DNA of 25,349 bases from a virus: positions 1-25,349 of IMG/VR virus record IMGVR_UViG_3300025577_000055; one strand, given 5' to 3'. The position numbers and the translations under genes were made by a program. The notes under the pieces are model-generated. The model did not search any database and was not told the origin of the DNA. It saw only the letters and a program-made list of their open reading frames with translations. This document shows positions 4,565 to 22,176 of the stretch, piece by piece. Position 1 is the stretch's first letter. Every line of letters starts with the position of its first letter.

Positions 4565-5023
4565 ATGACTTTTGGAATAGTGGCGGCATTAACCGCAATA
4601 GGTGGTGGAAGTGCCGCTGTAGGTGCGGCAGTAGCCGCGACAGCCGTAGGAACAGGGCTTAATGTTTACGGTCAAGTTGAATCTGGCAAAGCGCAACAAG
4701 ATGCTTTAGAAGAGCAAGCTAGGCAAGAAAAGATTGCGGCTGAAGGGCGTGAACTAAAAAGACGACAAGAGTTAAGCAAAGTCCTTGCATCTAACATTGT
4801 TAGTGCGTCTATGTCTGGAGAAACAGGTGAAGGATCTACTGCTAGTCTTTCTTTAGAAACTGCTAAACAAATAGGCACAAGTGAAGCAATGATAGGATTA
4901 ACTGAAAGGTTAGCCGAAGCACAAACATTAAGAAAAGCTAGAATGGCTAGAGGAACTGCTAATATTGGCGCGGCATCTACTTTGCTTAAAGGTACGGCAA
5001 AAGTTGCAAACGCGTTTGCATAA
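4565..5023 (+). CDS. Internal virion protein, small (T7 gp14-like)
   Basis: 152 residues. The N-terminus is a strongly hydrophobic, Ala/Gly-rich segment (residues 4-35), followed by a charged coiled-coil helix (Q-E-K-I-A-A-E-G-R-E-L-K-R-R-Q-E), then an Ala/Gly/Ser-rich C-terminus with L-R-K-A-R-M-A-R-G. This layout matches T7 gp14-type ejection proteins, which are packed in the virion and inserted into the host outer membrane at infection. The ATG directly follows the previous stop, with AGAGGA as ribosome site. Position before two larger internal virion genes supports the call. Confidence 0.7.
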   Translation: MTFGIVAALTAIGGGSAAVGAAVAATAVGTGLNVYGQVESGKAQQDALEEQARQEKIAAEGRELKRRQELSKVLASNIVSASMSGETGEGSTASLSLETAKQIGTSEAMIGLTERLAEAQTLRKARMARGTANIGAASTLLKGTAKVANAFA

Positions 5024-15428: not shown

Positions 15429-16221
15429 GCTTGACACTCTAATAGAAACGTCTAGCGCAATCGTTGATCAGATAGATAAAGGCATTATGTTTGTTGGAGG
15501 TTCAATCCACGCATCTCAGACAGGCATGGGTATTTCTAGCGGACAGCTTTCAGGAAACTATTACATATCTAGCGAGCAAGTAACTGCTTACAACTCTGCT
15601 TTGTCTGGCATGGTTAATTACCTGCCTTATGGTTCTGCTGAAGATTACCTCAACGAGCAAGCGCAAAGTGAACTCGATGCAATGGAAGATGCTATTGAGG
15701 AATTTACTACTGTAGTGGTTGATATGCTTGAGGTACAGGAAGTAGCAGAACGCGCTGAAACGGCTGAAACCCCCGATGATCAAGCAGAAGTCCAAGACTA
15801 CATAGCGCAGAATGATATGTCAGTTTCTCAAGAGGACGCTGATACTTACAATCAAAGTCTAGATGATATTGAAGAACACGCTAACGCGGCAGGAGCTTTC
15901 TTAGCTGTAGCAGGGAACCCAGAAGCGGTAGCATTTTTAGATCAAGGTGCAATGGACAACAACACTCGCGTCGAAGATAACACGCTTACTTACAGTTCTA
16001 CTAACCAAGCTGTTGAATTAGCTTGGGCATCTAGCGAGACAGTCAGCAGTGTGTATCTTAATGGGCAGGGTAATTACGGCTTAGATATTTACGCCTCCGA
16101 AACTGAAATTCTTAACACTGGTTACGAGAGTTTGTTCTACAACACTGGCCCAACGGCTTTAGGGTTTAATTGCTTCATGTATCAAATTGATTGTGAAGAT
16201 GAAGAAAGTGACAACACATGA
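15358..16221 (+). CDS. Secreted acidic protein of unknown function, 287 residues
   Basis: Starts within the preceding gene, 71 bases before its stop, with AGGA upstream. Signal peptide: M-M-K-K-M-K-K-A-V-L-M-S-L-C-L-L-C-S-G-V-Q-S; the L-L-C sequence is not a standard lipobox, so signal peptidase I cleavage near Q-S-S is more likely. The mature protein is strongly acidic and helical in the middle (Q-S-E-L-D-A-M-E-D-A-I-E-E-F) with a beta-rich C-terminus and two late cysteines (N-C-F-M-Y-Q-I-D-C). Its TGA overlaps the next ATG (ATGA). The overlap with another secreted protein suggests the pair works together. No known family recognised. Confidence 0.6.
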   Translation: MMKKMKKAVLMSLCLLCSGVQSSELDTLIETSSAIVDQIDKGIMFVGGSIHASQTGMGISSGQLSGNYYISSEQVTAYNSALSGMVNYLPYGSAEDYLNEQAQSELDAMEDAIEEFTTVVVDMLEVQEVAERAETAETPDDQAEVQDYIAQNDMSVSQEDADTYNQSLDDIEEHANAAGAFLAVAGNPEAVAFLDQGAMDNNTRVEDNTLTYSSTNQAVELAWASSETVSSVYLNGQGNYGLDIYASETEILNTGYESLFYNTGPTALGFNCFMYQIDCEDEESDNT

Positions 16222-18220: not shown

Positions 18221-18460
18221 CTATTCTACACTAAACGTAGGGTGATGCAACCTTAATTCTTCATCTGTTGGCGGTTCAGCAAGAGCCTCTTGTTCAGCCT
18301 CTACATCAGACCAGATTAAATCTATCTCTTCTACTGCATAAGCAGGCAGGGCAGAGCCATACAGCACAGCCTCAAAGATAGAATCCATCTGTATTGGAAC
18401 ATGATGCATCTTTAAATCAATGGCCTTGCTCCGTAAATCGTTTAAAAATCCATTAGTCAT
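18221..18460 (-). CDS. Unknown acidic protein, 79 residues
   Basis: Begins M-T-N-G-F-L-N-D-L-R-S-K-A-I-D, helical and acidic in the second half (E-E-I-D-L-I-W-S-D-V-E-A-E-Q-E-A-L), ending H-H-P-T-F-S-V-E. Its ATG overlaps the TGA of the NinG gene (ATGA), so it belongs to the same operon and is probably translationally coupled. No family recognised. It is the last gene before the terminator, with 115 bases of untranslated sequence between. Confidence 0.55.
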   Translation of the reverse strand: MTNGFLNDLRSKAIDLKMHHVPIQMDSIFEAVLYGSALPAYAVEEIDLIWSDVEAEQEALAEPPTDEELRLHHPTFSVE

Positions 18461-18861
18461 AACAATCTTTCCTCATGGTATTTAATTAAATCATTAAACT
18501 CTTTTAACATATCCCTGTAATCAGCAGTGTACAACTTCTTAATCTTTCTTTTGTCTTGGTGCATCTGCCGAACAAAGTCCTCACCGTACATATCAATCAT
18601 CCATAGTGTGTACTGTCCTTCAGCACTACCCTTGGACATACCAAAGGCATTACATCCTTTACACTGGGGGTGAACATTCTCAACCTCTAATGCCCAGTAC
18701 GAACTACTCCCCTTAGCTATGTAGTGACCACCATCACATTCCTTCCAGTGCATTCTCTTATCACAAGATACACACTGAACCATTCCATATTCATCTGCGG
18801 CAGAGATTCTTGCCAATTTCTGGATTGCAGTCAAACACTTAGAACGTAATGTAACAGCCAT
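18457..18861 (-). CDS. ninG: NinG-like recombination protein (Rap family)
   Basis: 134 residues from ATG 18861 (GAGG 7 nt upstream); an ATG at 18900 is also possible and would add 13 residues containing a DNA palindrome. A zinc-binding module is clear: C-V-S-C (C30, C33), C42, then G-G-H-Y-I (H46), and E-N-V-H-P-Q-C-K-G-C-N (H64, C67, C70). This is the pattern of lambda NinG/Rap, a structure-specific endonuclease that resolves branched recombination intermediates. It is shorter than lambda NinG, lacking the long basic N-terminal part. Company of NinB-like and O-like genes supports the call. Confidence 0.85.
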   Translation of the reverse strand: MAVTLRSKCLTAIQKLARISAADEYGMVQCVSCDKRMHWKECDGGHYIAKGSSSYWALEVENVHPQCKGCNAFGMSKGSAEGQYTLWMIDMYGEDFVRQMHQDKRKIKKLYTADYRDMLKEFNDLIKYHEERLL

Positions 18862-18880
18862 AAATAACCTCATTTTACCA

Positions 18881-18894
18881 TACCCTGTAGGGTA
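18881..18894. repeat. Short palindrome TACCC-TGTA-GGGTA
   Basis: A perfect 5-bp inverted repeat with a 4-base centre, just upstream of the preferred NinG start. It could be an operator or an RNA hairpin that controls NinG translation. If NinG starts at 18900 it is coding. Another TACCCT half-like element lies at 18973-18977. Confidence 0.4.
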
Positions 18895-18908
18895 GATCAT
18901 ATTTTTAC

Positions 18909-19106: not shown

Positions 19107-19526
19107 CTACTCAGTCATATCTTTTGAAGGGAATGGTATGTGTATACCAGTTCTCTCCACCAAACCCCGATTGATAGCGTCATATACTTTAGCTACTTTG
19201 TCAGAGTGTATCTCGGTAGTAGATTCTATGTCGTACATGGTGTTTTGAATCTGCTTCCAAAATAATTTAAATGATTGTTGTGTCCACGGTATCTCAATGT
19301 CACCCTTCATAAACTTAGCGTTCATCTGATGGTAGATACCTGCATCGTTTAGACGTCTAGCCGCCTCTTTGAAATAGACTTCCAGTGCCGCTTGTTGCTT
19401 TGGTGATCGTGGTTTACCAAACGTGTACCGAAAAGTAATGTACTGCTTGTCTTCAAACAACTCATCGACAAACTTTTTAAACAATTCTTTCTTCTGTTCA
19501 GTGTTTACTGTGTACGCTTCACCCAT
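19107..19526 (-). CDS. ninB: NinB-like (Orf) recombination mediator
   Basis: 139 residues from ATG 19526, chosen because AAGGA lies 7 nt upstream; ATG 19547 would add 7 residues. The C-terminal half has the order expected of lambda NinB/Orf: I-P-W-T-Q-Q-S-F-K, L-F-W-K-Q-I-Q, E-S-T-T-E-I, V-Y-D-A-I-N-R, and the ending G-I-H-I-P-F-P-S. Lambda Orf helps load annealing and recombination proteins on single-stranded DNA coated with SSB. The start overlaps the stop of the tandem-HTH gene (TAATG). Family named by recognised pattern; similarity at the N-terminus is less clear. Confidence 0.7.
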   Translation of the reverse strand: MGEAYTVNTEQKKELFKKFVDELFEDKQYITFRYTFGKPRSPKQQAALEVYFKEAARRLNDAGIYHQMNAKFMKGDIEIPWTQQSFKLFWKQIQNTMYDIESTTEIHSDKVAKVYDAINRGLVERTGIHIPFPSKDMTE

Positions 19527-20020
19527 TAGAGTTTCCTTCTTAACCATTGTGCACTTATAAATTCAGCGTGGCTTTCAAATACGCTACTTGCTAACTGTGG
19601 TTGAAAGTGGCTTTTATTTACAGCTTTAGATATTGGTCTTACATGGTGGTTACTAAACGTAGTAGCCTTACCTATCCTTTTGCTTAACGCATTTGGTTTA
19701 AGACCAGTAATCTCAGCTAATTTTTTAATTGTGTATTTTTCTCCTGCATTAAAGCGGGCATCATCCCCTACAAAAGTCATCAATTTTTGTTGATGTTGAT
19801 TGCCATTAAACTGTGTTTGAACGCGCTTAATTTTCTTAAAGTTATTGTCTCTAGCAGTTGCCTTGTATCTCAGCCGCTCGCATACAAATGTTTTAGATAC
19901 GCCAAATGCTTTAGCCAACTCGTCCCTGCTGTAGAATGTACCTGATGTTAGCTTAGGATTTTTACCCTTGTACTCAATTAAAATTGTTCTGCTATCGTGT
20001 TCCATAATTAATTCGCCCAT
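19526..20020 (-). CDS. Tandem helix-turn-helix protein, unknown role
   Basis: Up to 164 residues. Two helix-turn-helix-like segments are visible: Y-S-R-D-E-L-A-K-A-F-G-V-S-K-T-F-V-C-E-R-L at about 30-50, and Y-T-I-K-K-L-A-E-I-T-G-L-K-P-N-A-L-S-K-R-I at about 96-116, each preceded by a similar beta-like lead (T-S-G-T-F-Y; N-A-G-E-K-Y). The repeat suggests internal duplication and binding to a two-part DNA site. Start could be ATG 20020 (overlapping the initiator gene by 13 bases) or ATG 20005; neither has a strong ribosome site. It lies between initiator and NinB and may be a helper of replication or a regulator. Confidence 0.65.
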   Translation of the reverse strand: MGELIMEHDSRTILIEYKGKNPKLTSGTFYSRDELAKAFGVSKTFVCERLRYKATARDNNFKKIKRVQTQFNGNQHQQKLMTFVGDDARFNAGEKYTIKKLAEITGLKPNALSKRIGKATTFSNHHVRPISKAVNKSHFQPQLASSVFESHAEFISAQWLRRKL

Positions 20021-20688
20021 GATGTGTCTGTCAGTGCATCTTCAATAGATCGATCTTTTATTGTCCCCTTTTGTTTGGGTTTAGATCGTTGTTTGCGGTT
20101 AGTTTCCCATGTTCTCACACAAGCCTTCCAATCTTTCATCTTGTTCTTGCCTACCATCCATCCCTTTGCTTGGTAGAAATCAATAAAGGTTTCTGCATCA
20201 ACTAAATTGTTTCTTTGATTACAATAATCACTAACTTCATCAACACTGGGAGGAGTGAAACGAGTCCCCTTATTAGTTGTATTATTAAATGTATTATTAA
20301 TTGTCTTATTATCCTCCATTATTTTATGGGGAGGGTCCCCATCATTTTGTGGGGAGGGTATACATTTTTTAATGGGGAGGGTATCCATTATTTTATCCAT
20401 ACCCCCCTCGTTGATTCTTATGTATCTTTTCAGGACTTGCTTAGTACCTTCTTTGTATTCAAGTTGTACTGTGATGTATCCTTTTGTCTTAAGCTGTCCT
20501 ATCCAACCACTGACCGTCTTAGGGTCTACTTCATAAAGATCAGCAAAGTATTGATTACTAGACCAACAGTAGCCTTCCTTGTTACATAATGCAGTGATCT
20601 CTGCGTACAACAATCTAGCCAGTGGCTTTAAAGTCTTGTCATACCGAACATCAGCGGTCAAAATAGCGAAATAGGATGGCTTATCCAT
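20008..20688 (-). CDS. O-like replication initiator carrying its own origin
   Basis: 226 residues from ATG 20688, which overlaps the HTH gene stop (TGATG) with GGTGAG upstream. Residues about 15-92 form a winged helix (L-A-R-L-L-Y-A-E-I-T-A-L, W-S-S-N-Q-Y-F-A-D-L-Y-E-V-D, V-S-G-W-I-G-Q-L-K-T-K-G-Y-I) as in phage replisome organisers. Residues 96-141 are a low-complexity linker encoded by iteron-like repeats. The C-terminal part has F-I-D-F-Y-Q-A-K-G-W and W-K-A-C-V-R-T-W-E, a motif shared with DnaD/O-type C-terminal domains. It should bind the origin and recruit a helicase (host or phage). No DnaC- or DnaB-like gene is in the window. Confidence 0.8.
   Translation of the reverse strand: MDKPSYFAILTADVRYDKTLKPLARLLYAEITALCNKEGYCWSSNQYFADLYEVDPKTVSGWIGQLKTKGYITVQLEYKEGTKQVLKRYIRINEGGMDKIMDTLPIKKCIPSPQNDGDPPHKIMEDNKTINNTFNNTTNKGTRFTPPSVDEVSDYCNQRNNLVDAETFIDFYQAKGWMVGKNKMKDWKACVRTWETNRKQRSKPKQKGTIKDRSIEDALTDTSWAN
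20278..20301. repeat. Tandem AT-rich 12-mers, candidate DNA unwinding element
   Basis: TGTATTATTAAA (20278-20289) followed directly by TGTATTATTAAT (20290-20301), 11 of 12 identical, within an AT-rich stretch from about 20268 to 20326. It lies beside the iterons, on the initiator-gene downstream side, as the AT-rich region does in lambda ori. Confidence 0.55.
20317..20405. repeat. Iteron array inside the initiator gene (candidate origin of replication)
   Basis: Three 20-bp units begin at 20317, 20340 and 20363, each ending TGGGGAGGGT. Units 2 and 3 each differ from unit 1 at two positions. A fourth unit at 20386 keeps only the first 11 bases (CATTATTTTAT). The period is exactly 23 bp, which is not a multiple of three, so the three GC-rich cores are translated in three different frames. 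The repeat therefore cannot come from protein selection. Layout matches initiator-binding iterons. Confidence 0.75.
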
Positions 20689-20888
20689 CACTCACCTACC
20701 GCAATGAACTCTGATACCTTAACTTCACAAGCACTAGCCAGTTTAGTTAGTGTCTTCATGTTCGGAGATCGGTGGTTGTTTCTGATTAAACTTAGGGTAG
20801 CAATGTCCAACCCTGCATTGACTGCAAGCTGACTTTGATTTAAACGTAACTCATACATAAAATGATCTATTGATTTATTGATGTCCAT
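20688..20888 (-). CDS. Cro/CI-like helix-turn-helix regulator, 66 residues
   Basis: XRE-type HTH: L-N-Q-S-Q-L-A-V-N-A-G-L-D-I-A-T-L-S-L-I-R (residues 16-36), then N-N-H-R-S-P-N-M-K-T-L-T-K-L-A-S-A-C-E-V-K. There is no protease or dimerisation domain, so it is Cro-sized. The ribosome site AAGGAG is 5 nt before the ATG. It is the first gene of the leftward operon, and its promoter is back to back with that of the rightward early genes, so it probably represses one or both. Stop overlaps the initiator ATG (TGATG). Confidence 0.85.
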   Translation of the reverse strand: MDINKSIDHFMYELRLNQSQLAVNAGLDIATLSLIRNNHRSPNMKTLTKLASACEVKVSEFIAVGE

Positions 20889-20913
20889 GTTAACTCCTTA
20901 GTAGTGAATGCGA

Positions 20914-20942
20914 ACTGTAAATTAATTTTAATCTCTAGTCAA
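20914..20942 (-). promoter_or_regulatory. Leftward early promoter
   Basis: On the minus strand TTGACT (20942-20937), 17-bp spacer, TACAGT (20919-20914), 26 bases before the HTH start codon. Five of six and four of six matches to the sigma70 consensus. Confidence 0.6.
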
Positions 20943-20949
20943 ACTTTTG

Positions 20950-20978
20950 TTGACATCTAGTTAACCGTAGTCCATTAT
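20950..20978 (+). promoter_or_regulatory. Rightward early promoter
   Basis: TTGACA (20950-20955), 17-bp spacer, CATTAT (20973-20978). A TATACT at 20976-20981 is a better hexamer but with 20-bp spacing. The -35 boxes of the two divergent promoters form the inverted repeat GTCAA-N7-TTGAC centred on 20946, a natural site for a repressor that blocks both. Confidence 0.6.
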
Positions 20979-21010
20979 ACTATGACAAACAACAAAAAGA
21001 GGAAATCAAC

Positions 21011-21187
21011 ATGAGAGACAATCCAATACAATGTCCAGATGATTTAGATGATTTTTATTCAAGACTTGCAGGACGACCAATAGACCCTGATCAGAAGAAT
21101 GATGACTGGTTTTGGAATGAGCGCGAGAAGAAAGCCAAGGTTATAGAGGCTCGATGGATAAAGAATATGGAGAAAAGTCATGGATAA
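21011..21187 (+). CDS. Small unknown early protein, 58 residues
   Basis: First gene after the rightward promoter, with GAGGAA 5 nt before the ATG. Begins M-R-D-N-P-I-Q-C-P-D-D-L-D-D-F-Y-S-R-L and ends in a charged helix (W-N-E-R-E-K-K-A-K-V-I-E-A-R-W). Its 3' end overlaps the next ORF by 8 bases. No family recognised. A role as early regulator or inhibitor would fit its position but is a guess. Confidence 0.6.
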   Translation: MRDNPIQCPDDLDDFYSRLAGRPIDPDQKNDDWFWNEREKKAKVIEARWIKNMEKSHG

Positions 21188-21335
21188 TATGAATGATCTA
21201 AATGACTATGATCGTGGAGAGTACGATAGAATAGCAGGCTATGATGCTTTGCCTAATCAATCAGACTCTTATGAACAGGGTTATGGTAAGGCATACAACC
21301 TAGAGATGAATGCTACAGCGAGGAGCGAACAATGA
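21180..21335 (+). CDS. Small acidic early protein, 51 residues
   Basis: Begins M-D-N-M-N-D-L-N-D-Y-D-R-G-E-Y-D-R-I-A-G-Y and continues S-D-S-Y-E-Q-G-Y-G-K-A-Y. The D-Y-D-R-G and Y-x-x-G-Y patterns recur in small uncharacterised phage proteins (from memory). GGAG lies about 8 nt before the ATG. Overlaps the genes on both sides (8 and 4 bases), supporting coupled translation. Function unknown. Confidence 0.6.
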   Translation: MDNMNDLNDYDRGEYDRIAGYDALPNQSDSYEQGYGKAYNLEMNATARSEQ

Positions 21336-21640
21336 ATAAACAAGATTTGCTCGATCGTATTGAAATGGATGAAGAAGAATTTATTAAGTGGTCACAAAGT
21401 TTTTCTCCTGAATTAATATATTTTTGGGATGATACGCCTTGTTGTTTATACACTGATGGAGATGGAGGTATTGCATTGATACGAGGTTTTTGTGATGTAT
21501 TTGAGGAGAAAGGATTTCAAATATCTTTCCCAATCCCAACACTTTATTGTGATATTTCTTTTGATGATATGTCTGACATCATAGCAAACCTTAAAAAAAA
21601 TATTAAAACTTATTTAAAAGAACTGGAGGAAACAGAATGA
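21332..21640 (+). CDS. Unknown acidic early protein, 102 residues
   Basis: ATG overlaps the previous stop (ATGA) and GAGGAG lies just upstream. Begins M-N-K-Q-D-L-L-D-R-I-E-M-D-E-E-E-F, with an aromatic middle (L-I-Y-F-W-D-D-T-P-C-C-L-Y) and a helical end (I-I-A-N-L-K-K-N-I-K-T-Y-L-K-E-L). The acidic surface and position before the recombination genes are all that can be said; no family recognised. Overlaps the annealing protein by 4 bases. Confidence 0.6.
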   Translation: MNKQDLLDRIEMDEEEFIKWSQSFSPELIYFWDDTPCCLYTDGDGGIALIRGFCDVFEEKGFQISFPIPTLYCDISFDDMSDIIANLKKNIKTYLKELEETE

Positions 21641-22176
21641 GTACATGGAAAACATTATCAGCAATAGATTGCAGTAAACACGTAGAGAAGAAAGGCAACC
21701 TGTCTTACCTCTCTTGGGCATGGGCGTGGTCTACTTTGATGGAACACTACCCTGATTCAAGCTACACATACTGTCCTCCTTCCTTTCTTGAGAATGGTAC
21801 TTGTGAAGTCAACGTATCGGTCACAGTGAAAGAGAAAACACACTCTATGTGGCTACCAGTTATGGATAATAGGAATAAAGCTGTGCCTAATCCTACATCC
21901 AGAGACATTTCTGATGCTCGTATGCGCTGTTTAGTTAAAGCTATTGCCATGCATGGGCTAGGTGCTTACATCTACGCAGGGGAAGACTTGCCGCAAGCTG
22001 TACAAAATGCTGTACTGTCTGGCGATCAAGCTAAAGAGATCAAAGGGCTACTTGCAGAGCATGGAGTAGATGTTAAAGTCTTTCTAAAGCACTTCAAAGC
22101 AACCTCAGTTGATGAGATGTTAGCTGTACACTACTCTAAAGCTGTGGCGGCACTGAATGCTAAGGCTAAAAAATGA
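21637..22176 (+). CDS. Single-strand annealing protein, Sak family (DUF1071-type)
   Basis: 179 residues. The family-like motif N-L-S-Y-L-S-W-A-W-A-W (residues 21-31) is followed by a beta-rich core and D-A-R-M-R-C-L-V-K-A-I-A-M-H-G-L-G-A-Y-I-Y-A-G-E-D-L-P (about 92-120), both typical of Sak/DUF1071 proteins of the Rad52-like annealase group. It would anneal complementary single strands produced by the exonuclease next door. The C-terminal extension (K-E-I-K-G-L-L-A-E-H-G-V-D-V) is a helical domain. GGAGG lies upstream, and the gene overlaps both neighbours by 4 bases. Confidence 0.88.
   Translation: MSTWKTLSAIDCSKHVEKKGNLSYLSWAWAWSTLMEHYPDSSYTYCPPSFLENGTCEVNVSVTVKEKTHSMWLPVMDNRNKAVPNPTSRDISDARMRCLVKAIAMHGLGAYIYAGEDLPQAVQNAVLSGDQAKEIKGLLAEHGVDVKVFLKHFKATSVDEMLAVHYSKAVAALNAKAKK

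Follow-up and report, generated by a model that had tools for sequence, protein, structure and literature searches.

The replication initiator gene of an uncultured phage (virus record IMGVR_UViG_3300025577_000055; 25,349 bases, all of which were analysed and are referred to here as the window) carries in its interior a short direct repeat with a period that does not keep the reading frame. The locus raises the question of what such a repeat does within coding DNA, and in particular whether it forms part of the origin from which the phage replicates, as the initial annotation proposed. Origins of this kind are known from other phages. Ori-lambda is placed in the middle of gene O and consists of several closely spaced iterons with an adjoining AT-rich tract (PMC7466680; PMC6022878), and oriL of SPP1, which lies inside gene 38, is described as a combination of direct repeats and an AT-rich unwinding element (PMC6316719).

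The initiator gene and its surroundings

The initiator gene (20008-20691, minus strand, 227 aa) starts with a GTG codon, with an ATG 3 bases further on. Near its N-terminus the protein matches Pfam HTH_36 (E 7.9e-11; 42 bits against a cut-off of 25), the match being encoded at 20473-20634 on the minus strand (residues 20-73). The best PHROG match is 19658, replication initiation protein (E 2e-30), and further matches include phrog_270 (E 1.1e-25) and the O-like phrog_678 (E 1.5e-11). By these profiles, the window protein is a phage replication initiator of the HTH_36 type (PHROG 19658/270). The protein had been said to differ in sequence from lambda O; this is borne out in Pfam, where HTH_36 and a sub-threshold DUF7175 are the only matches at E ≤ 0.1 and no lambda O model was matched, while weaker matches to O-like families exist among the PHROGs.

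Pfam, pLDDT and fold neighbours together place the HTH_36 match within a winged-helix DNA-binding domain. In the predicted structure (mean pLDDT 67.9), the winged-helix block reaches means of 86-92 over residues 11-80, the linker (residues 97-143) is below 50, and the C-terminal module is helical. This module (residues 138-227; 20008-20280, minus strand), which is swapped for another in the relatives L007-L012, is proposed to be the part that docks a helicase or a loader. In lambda O, DNA binding is likewise N-terminal and partner docking C-terminal. A fold search gave no PDB match at E ≤ 0.001, and a sequence search of solved structures with a 30-row alignment (30 of 81 sequences) returned a single match, at E 0.25. 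A second fold comparison returned winged-helix domains from initiators, from primosome proteins and from regulators; the list includes 4pql_A (Z 9.3, rmsd 2.1, 84 residues aligned), 4pt7_B, “Structure of initiator” (Z 9.2, 4.7, 96), 5kbj_H, “Rep-DNA complex” (Z 8.5, 4.6, 95) and the N-terminus of DnaD, 2v79_A (Z 8.2, 5.0, 102); since LexA and other regulators are mixed in with these, the matches indicate a fold class only. When compared with viral proteins, the fold found replication initiators, with a putative replication protein O at rank 45 (E 5.4e-5), and a lambda O structure was not among the fold matches listed.

Directly upstream, and overlapping the initiator gene by 4 bases, is the gene for a small Cro/C1-type HTH regulator (20688-20888, minus strand; HTH_3, E 8.1e-08). 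The next gene downstream (19526-20020, minus strand, 164 aa) is HTH-like by weak matches, the best of them to HTH_10 (E 5.5e-05), and was not recognised as a helicase loader by Pfam, PHROG or a further search; beyond it lies the NinG gene (18457-18900). Counted against an origin at this locus is that a scan of 14 window proteins, a subset of the ORFs, recognised neither a helicase nor a loader. The Sak annealing protein and the YqaJ exonuclease are encoded on the strand opposite to the initiator, and 20889-21330 separates the recombination genes, which run rightward, from the initiator genes, which run leftward. Within this divergent region, positions 20950-20978 resemble a plus-strand promoter (10/12), although the number of such matches in the window is not above chance (7 found, 6.8 expected). 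A GC-skew switch had been predicted near 20.3 kb; the sign change falls at ~20.9 kb instead and proves nothing, because gene direction changes at the same place. Elsewhere in the window, the tail protein is 25-29% identical to those of Pelagibacter, Methylophilales and Vibrio phages (15 of 175 matches listed), and a tandem repeat (4576-4638; period 21, 3 copies, indels) lies inside a small ORF (4565-5023). Searches of the window for exact direct or inverted terminal repeats of 15-300 bases, and for tRNA genes, found none.

The repeat array and the adjoining AT-rich tract

The iteron array (20317-20408, no strand assigned) occupies the linker-coding part of the initiator gene and comprises four 23-bp units (20317-20339, 20340-20362, 20363-20385 and 20386-20408), as supported by repeat analyses and by synonymous suppression in relatives. 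The initial annotation described three near-identical 20-bp units at an exact 23-bp period followed by a degenerate fourth, and this description is confirmed. The first three units (plus-strand starts 20317, 20340 and 20363) agree in register at 52 of 60 positions and share the exact core TGGGGAGGGT at 20327, 20350 and 20373; the fourth (20386) keeps CATTATTTTAT of unit 1 at 11 of 11 positions and then carries the GC block in inverted form (CCATACCCCCC). Tandem Repeats Finder places the array at 20315-20396, with period 23, 3.6 copies and a score of 115. With up to one mismatch, TGGGGAGGGT has four matches in the window, a number equalled in 0 of 100 window shuffles, and the sole match outside the array is a single-mismatch copy at 16062.

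A period of 23 is not divisible by three, so the frame shifts with each unit and the peptide is not repeated along the array; the three cores encode T-L-P, P-S-P and D-P-P, as first stated. The three-copy score of 52/60 was reached by none of 300 synonymous recodings that keep the same protein (maximum 48) and by none of 300 codon shuffles (maximum 40). A weaker two-copy test puts the window gene above 60 of 60 codon shuffles, whereas 6 of 60 synonymous recodings score just as high. The hyphenated inverted-repeat symmetry of iterons of the lambda O type is seen only imperfectly in the window units, their inverted-repeat score being matched by 75 of 200 codon shuffles, a result that counts against the origin reading. 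A dyad centred on the A-tract was rejected as unit architecture on the same figure; across the family, such dyad pairs reach p ≤ 0.05 in 16 of 61 sequences and p ≤ 0.01 in 11 of 61. GC blocks were rejected as a family hallmark, since two or more occur in 60 of 61 linkers yet also in 43 of 61 controls from the first 195 nt and in 21 of 61 from the last 195 nt.

Beside the array, and missing from the initial annotation, lies an AT-rich tract (20270-20311, no strand assigned), a 12-bp tandem repeat of 3.5 copies and 88% AT that is proposed to be a DNA unwinding element. By nearest-neighbour energies, no 50-bp duplex in the window is less stable than that at 20277-20326, which adjoins the array. 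Two other measures are counted against the origin reading: among 100-bp windows the tract ranks only in the top 2.2%, and by the AT content of 60-mers one other site in the window is richer and two are equal. The relatives examined were the best 80 of 595 viral-contig stretches encoding a related protein, from which a non-redundant set of 51 sequences, window included, was drawn. In 46 of these 51, a 50-mer among the 1% least stable of the locus falls within the linker (6.5% for random segments); the figure for the 5% least stable is 51 of 51 (22.6%). The stability minimum of the locus, measured over 50-mers, is itself in the linker in 23 of 51 (1.3% for random segments). The AT words TAATAATA[ACT], TAATACTA or TTAATAATA, which were picked after the linkers had been inspected, occur in 56 of 61 linkers, compared with 0 of 61 controls from the first 195 nt and 4 of 61 from the last 195 nt.

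These data bear on the possibility that the array is an operator, at which the initiator or the Cro-like protein binds within the gene and controls transcription of its own operon rather than replication. Winged-helix and HTH proteins are encoded next to each other here, and in-gene binding could block transcription. However, no unit-like site is present near the operon start: outside the array, the window contains only the single-mismatch core at 16062, and a window search for the 16-mer AAAATAATGGATACCC with up to three mismatches found it in the array only. An operator would also leave the adjoining least stable tract, and its recurrence in relatives, unexplained. We give this explanation a slim chance.

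Selection on the linker and repeats in other phages

An origin would be expected, according to the initial annotation, to show DNA repeats that are kept while the linker protein varies. In the close set (the window and ten relatives, 11 sequences in all, of which L006 is partial), the linker has indeed changed in amino acids and hardly at all synonymously. Degenerate codons with synonymous variation number 32 of 90 over codons 2-94 and 2 of 40 in the linker (codons 95-137; Fisher p 1.6e-4, which like the p-values below is optimistic because the sequences are related), whereas amino-acid-changing codons number 6 of 93 before the linker and 6 of 43 within it. Only 1 of 30 core columns varies. 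Among the five sequences with the window's C-terminus, synonymous variation affects 22 of 90 codons before the linker, 1 of 40 in it and 14 of 84 in the C-terminus; the corresponding values for the six with the other C-terminus are 24 of 90, 2 of 40 and 5 of 59. The synonymous quiet of this alternative C-terminus (5/59) counts against the origin reading. A distant clade of 14 sequences has the same lack in its linker (3 of 38, compared with 29 of 73 before it and 14 of 47 in the C-terminus; p 3.4e-4 and 0.014). The substitution pattern shows that selection keeps the linker DNA more than the linker amino acids, and the two clades agree in the low synonymous variation of the linker.

This pattern also tells against the view that the repeats arose as a side effect of a low-complexity linker or through recent tandem duplication, with no function at the DNA level. 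The linker does resemble disordered segments in its low pLDDT, and short tandem repeats expand easily; yet the period of 23 shifts the frame and leaves the peptide unrepeated, no synonymous recoding reached the three-copy score, and synonymous variation in the linker is suppressed in two clades. We consider a mere by-product very improbable.

Repeats compatible with an in-gene origin recur beyond the close set. In 29 of the 51 non-redundant sequences, a repeated 18-mer pair scores above 60 of 60 codon shuffles; in 22 it does not, and this is counted against the origin reading. Judged from its position, the best pair belongs to the iteron part in 25 of the 29; the other 4, three with the pair in the AT tract (L005, L013 and L066) and one with it elsewhere (L081), are likewise counted against the origin reading. 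The 25 iteron arrays have periods of 22-24 bp. Also counted against is that only 9 of 51 beat 60 of 60 synonymous recodings as well, a control that is strict because arrays of period 24 repeat the peptide too. Relatives that retain the same protein without the repeats, named at the outset as evidence that would speak against an origin, were not seen: the 22 sequences without a detectable repeat are all loci of at most 50% identity, with another DNA-binding domain and linker. They include a group with VSR-type helices, several members of which have two GTTAAC-like words ~22-24 bases apart. In the genome-contig scan, 79 of 80 loci match from residue 107 onward only, most of them just in the C-terminal module, and these loci were left aside.

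Related HTH_36 initiators are also found in cultured phages, such as Lactobacillus phage c5, Staphylococcus phage phiSP38-1, Enterococcus phage vB_ElaS_B1578 and Flavonifractor phage Cormatin. Ten cultured phages were fetched for host diversity from 60 listed of 114 matching records, and their initiators are 29-51% identical to the window protein in the matched part. Nine of the ten have, in the linker, a repeated 18-mer pair that at most 1 of 100 codon shuffles reaches; by position, the pair falls in iteron-like units in 6 and in an AT-rich tract in 3. Erysipelothrix phage SE-1 failed this test (26 of 100 codon shuffles reach its pair). Within the gene, the 50-mer of lowest stability is at codons 112-130 for 8 of the ten phages and at codons 74-77 for the other 2, and the unit sequences vary from phage to phage. 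The gene directly behind the initiator is annotated as DnaC, IstB-like, DnaB-like, DNA replication protein or replication protein P in 6 of 10, and in phiSP38-1 a DNA helicase is encoded two genes on from the initiator; the window, in contrast, has its HTH-like gene in this position.

Module exchange, proposed origin layout and site specificity

Exchange of C-terminal modules is visible among the close relatives. The sequences of L002 and L009 agree without a difference through at least 1,314 bases, reaching from 900 bases ahead of the gene (the limit of the comparison) to gene nucleotide 414, after which their C-termini are unrelated; the junction maps to ~20277 in the window, where the AT tract ends on the side away from the array. 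Behind the alternative C-terminal module, L007 has an extra 150-aa gene, shortened to 100 aa in L009, for which Pfam, PHROGs, NCBIfam and the phage collection gave no matches. Pairwise comparison of the relatives (3,160 pairs) yielded 40 pairs with the same DNA-binding domain (at least 90% identity) and a different C-terminus (at most 65%), whose common iteron-region words are 17-72 bases long. The reverse combination, a shared C-terminus with differing DNA-binding domains, occurs in 15 pairs, whose common words are 7-10 bases long (L038 is present in 7 of these 15). The iterons therefore seem to go with the DNA-binding domain and not with the C-terminus, although linkage to the adjoining domain code could by itself explain this. 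That the conserved linker DNA is mainly a recombination joint for C-terminal modules, or an RNA hairpin or terminator, would fit the swap junction at the end of the AT tract and a terminator-like hairpin at 20326-20342. A joint, however, has no need of periodic units, and the hairpin, rejected as a conserved element, is missing from the close relative L003; we hold this explanation scarcely probable.

We put at roughly 86% the probability that the array and the AT-rich tract together form a replication origin of iterons plus unwinding element inside the initiator gene, similar to lambda O/ori-lambda and SPP1 gp38/oriL. The initial proposal of a phage origin within the initiator gene is thereby upheld in the main, through initiator homology and the substitution pattern. 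This reading rests on the identity of the initiator, on an out-of-frame repeat beyond codon controls and on synonymous suppression in two clades; on the adjoining least stable 50-mer, its recurrence in relatives and the tracking of the DNA-binding domain by the iterons; and on linker repeats in nine of ten cultured phages, along with the lambda and SPP1 precedents. In the proposed mechanism, the array would serve as the initiator-binding half of the origin, placed in code for a flexible linker, and the 23-bp units would be bound by the winged-helix N-terminal domain. Once occupied, these closely spaced units could strain the adjoining AT-rich tract until it melts, as its position and predicted instability suggest, and the C-terminal module may then bring in the host replicative helicase, either directly or via a loader.

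Lambda and the Shiga-toxin phages P27 and 933W have an in-gene origin made up of iterons and an AT-rich tract, the layout proposed for the window. The window differs from lambda in the sequence and period of its units, and no P gene was recognised among the proteins scanned. SPP1 is likened to the window by layout only; it differs in possessing two origins and in encoding a loader and a helicase of its own (PMC6316719). On these comparisons, the window holds a further phage initiator of the HTH_36 type with a putative in-gene origin, lambda-like in its working and of a kind already known. The titles and abstract openings searched, in which subscription papers are partly covered, contained no description of in-gene iterons in HTH_36 initiators, which is not to say that none has been published. 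The analysis locates the probable origin of a phage that has not been cultured, and the lambda-type layout of an origin inside its initiator is extended, with evidence from substitution patterns, to an HTH_36 initiator.

The GC-rich 10-mer, initially taken as the core of the units, is probably not what the protein recognises. The DNA-binding domain of L005 is 91% identical to that of L007, a member of the window's clade, yet L005 lacks the three in-line cores; its units are of an A-tract type (AAAATAATGGATACC), and the single 10-mer that it contains points the other way. Because the A-tract half is kept in L005 and also in the fourth unit of the window, the 10-mer was judged unlikely as the specificity element, and specificity probably resides in the A-tract half, the GC-rich block serving as flank or spacer. 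When linkers are ordered by recognition helix, the unit sequences, judged by eye, sort with the helix: KNKxTISRW goes with TTAGCA-AAAA-TGCTAA, KSxVTISKW with TTAAAG-AAAA-CTTTAA, VSR[VI]SIQKW with paired GTTAAC, and VDPKTVS with AAAATAATGGATACCC. A new iteron specificity, as had been suggested for the window, is thus likely but ordinary, since the HTH_36 initiator family has many different iteron sequences and the layout was known before.

A more tentative idea, to which we give well under even odds, is that the family constitutes a natural library of matched pairs of winged helix and landing site that change together. In that case, sequence alone could reveal how HTH_36 initiators recognise their sites, and the DNA-binding domain, iterons and unwinding element would make up a portable origin to which varied helicase-loading modules attach at a single fixed point. 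As a set of many self-contained protein-site pairs, the family may help in the study of origin choice by small winged-helix initiators, and it may be useful for tracing the exchange of replication modules between phages.

Two further observations concern the relatives. The Sak protein of the window (21637-22176) and the protein encoded at 1283-1858 of L002 have, by eye, different N-terminal parts and similar C-terminal tails, which suggests that modules have been exchanged a second time in this replication-recombination region. L006 (record G001, 25214 bases), a contig close to the window in length and weighed as a possible rotated copy of it, ends inside the initiator gene; elsewhere its kinship to the window is partial, for the end of the window was not found in G001, and bases 7-437 of the window match it at 76% identity.
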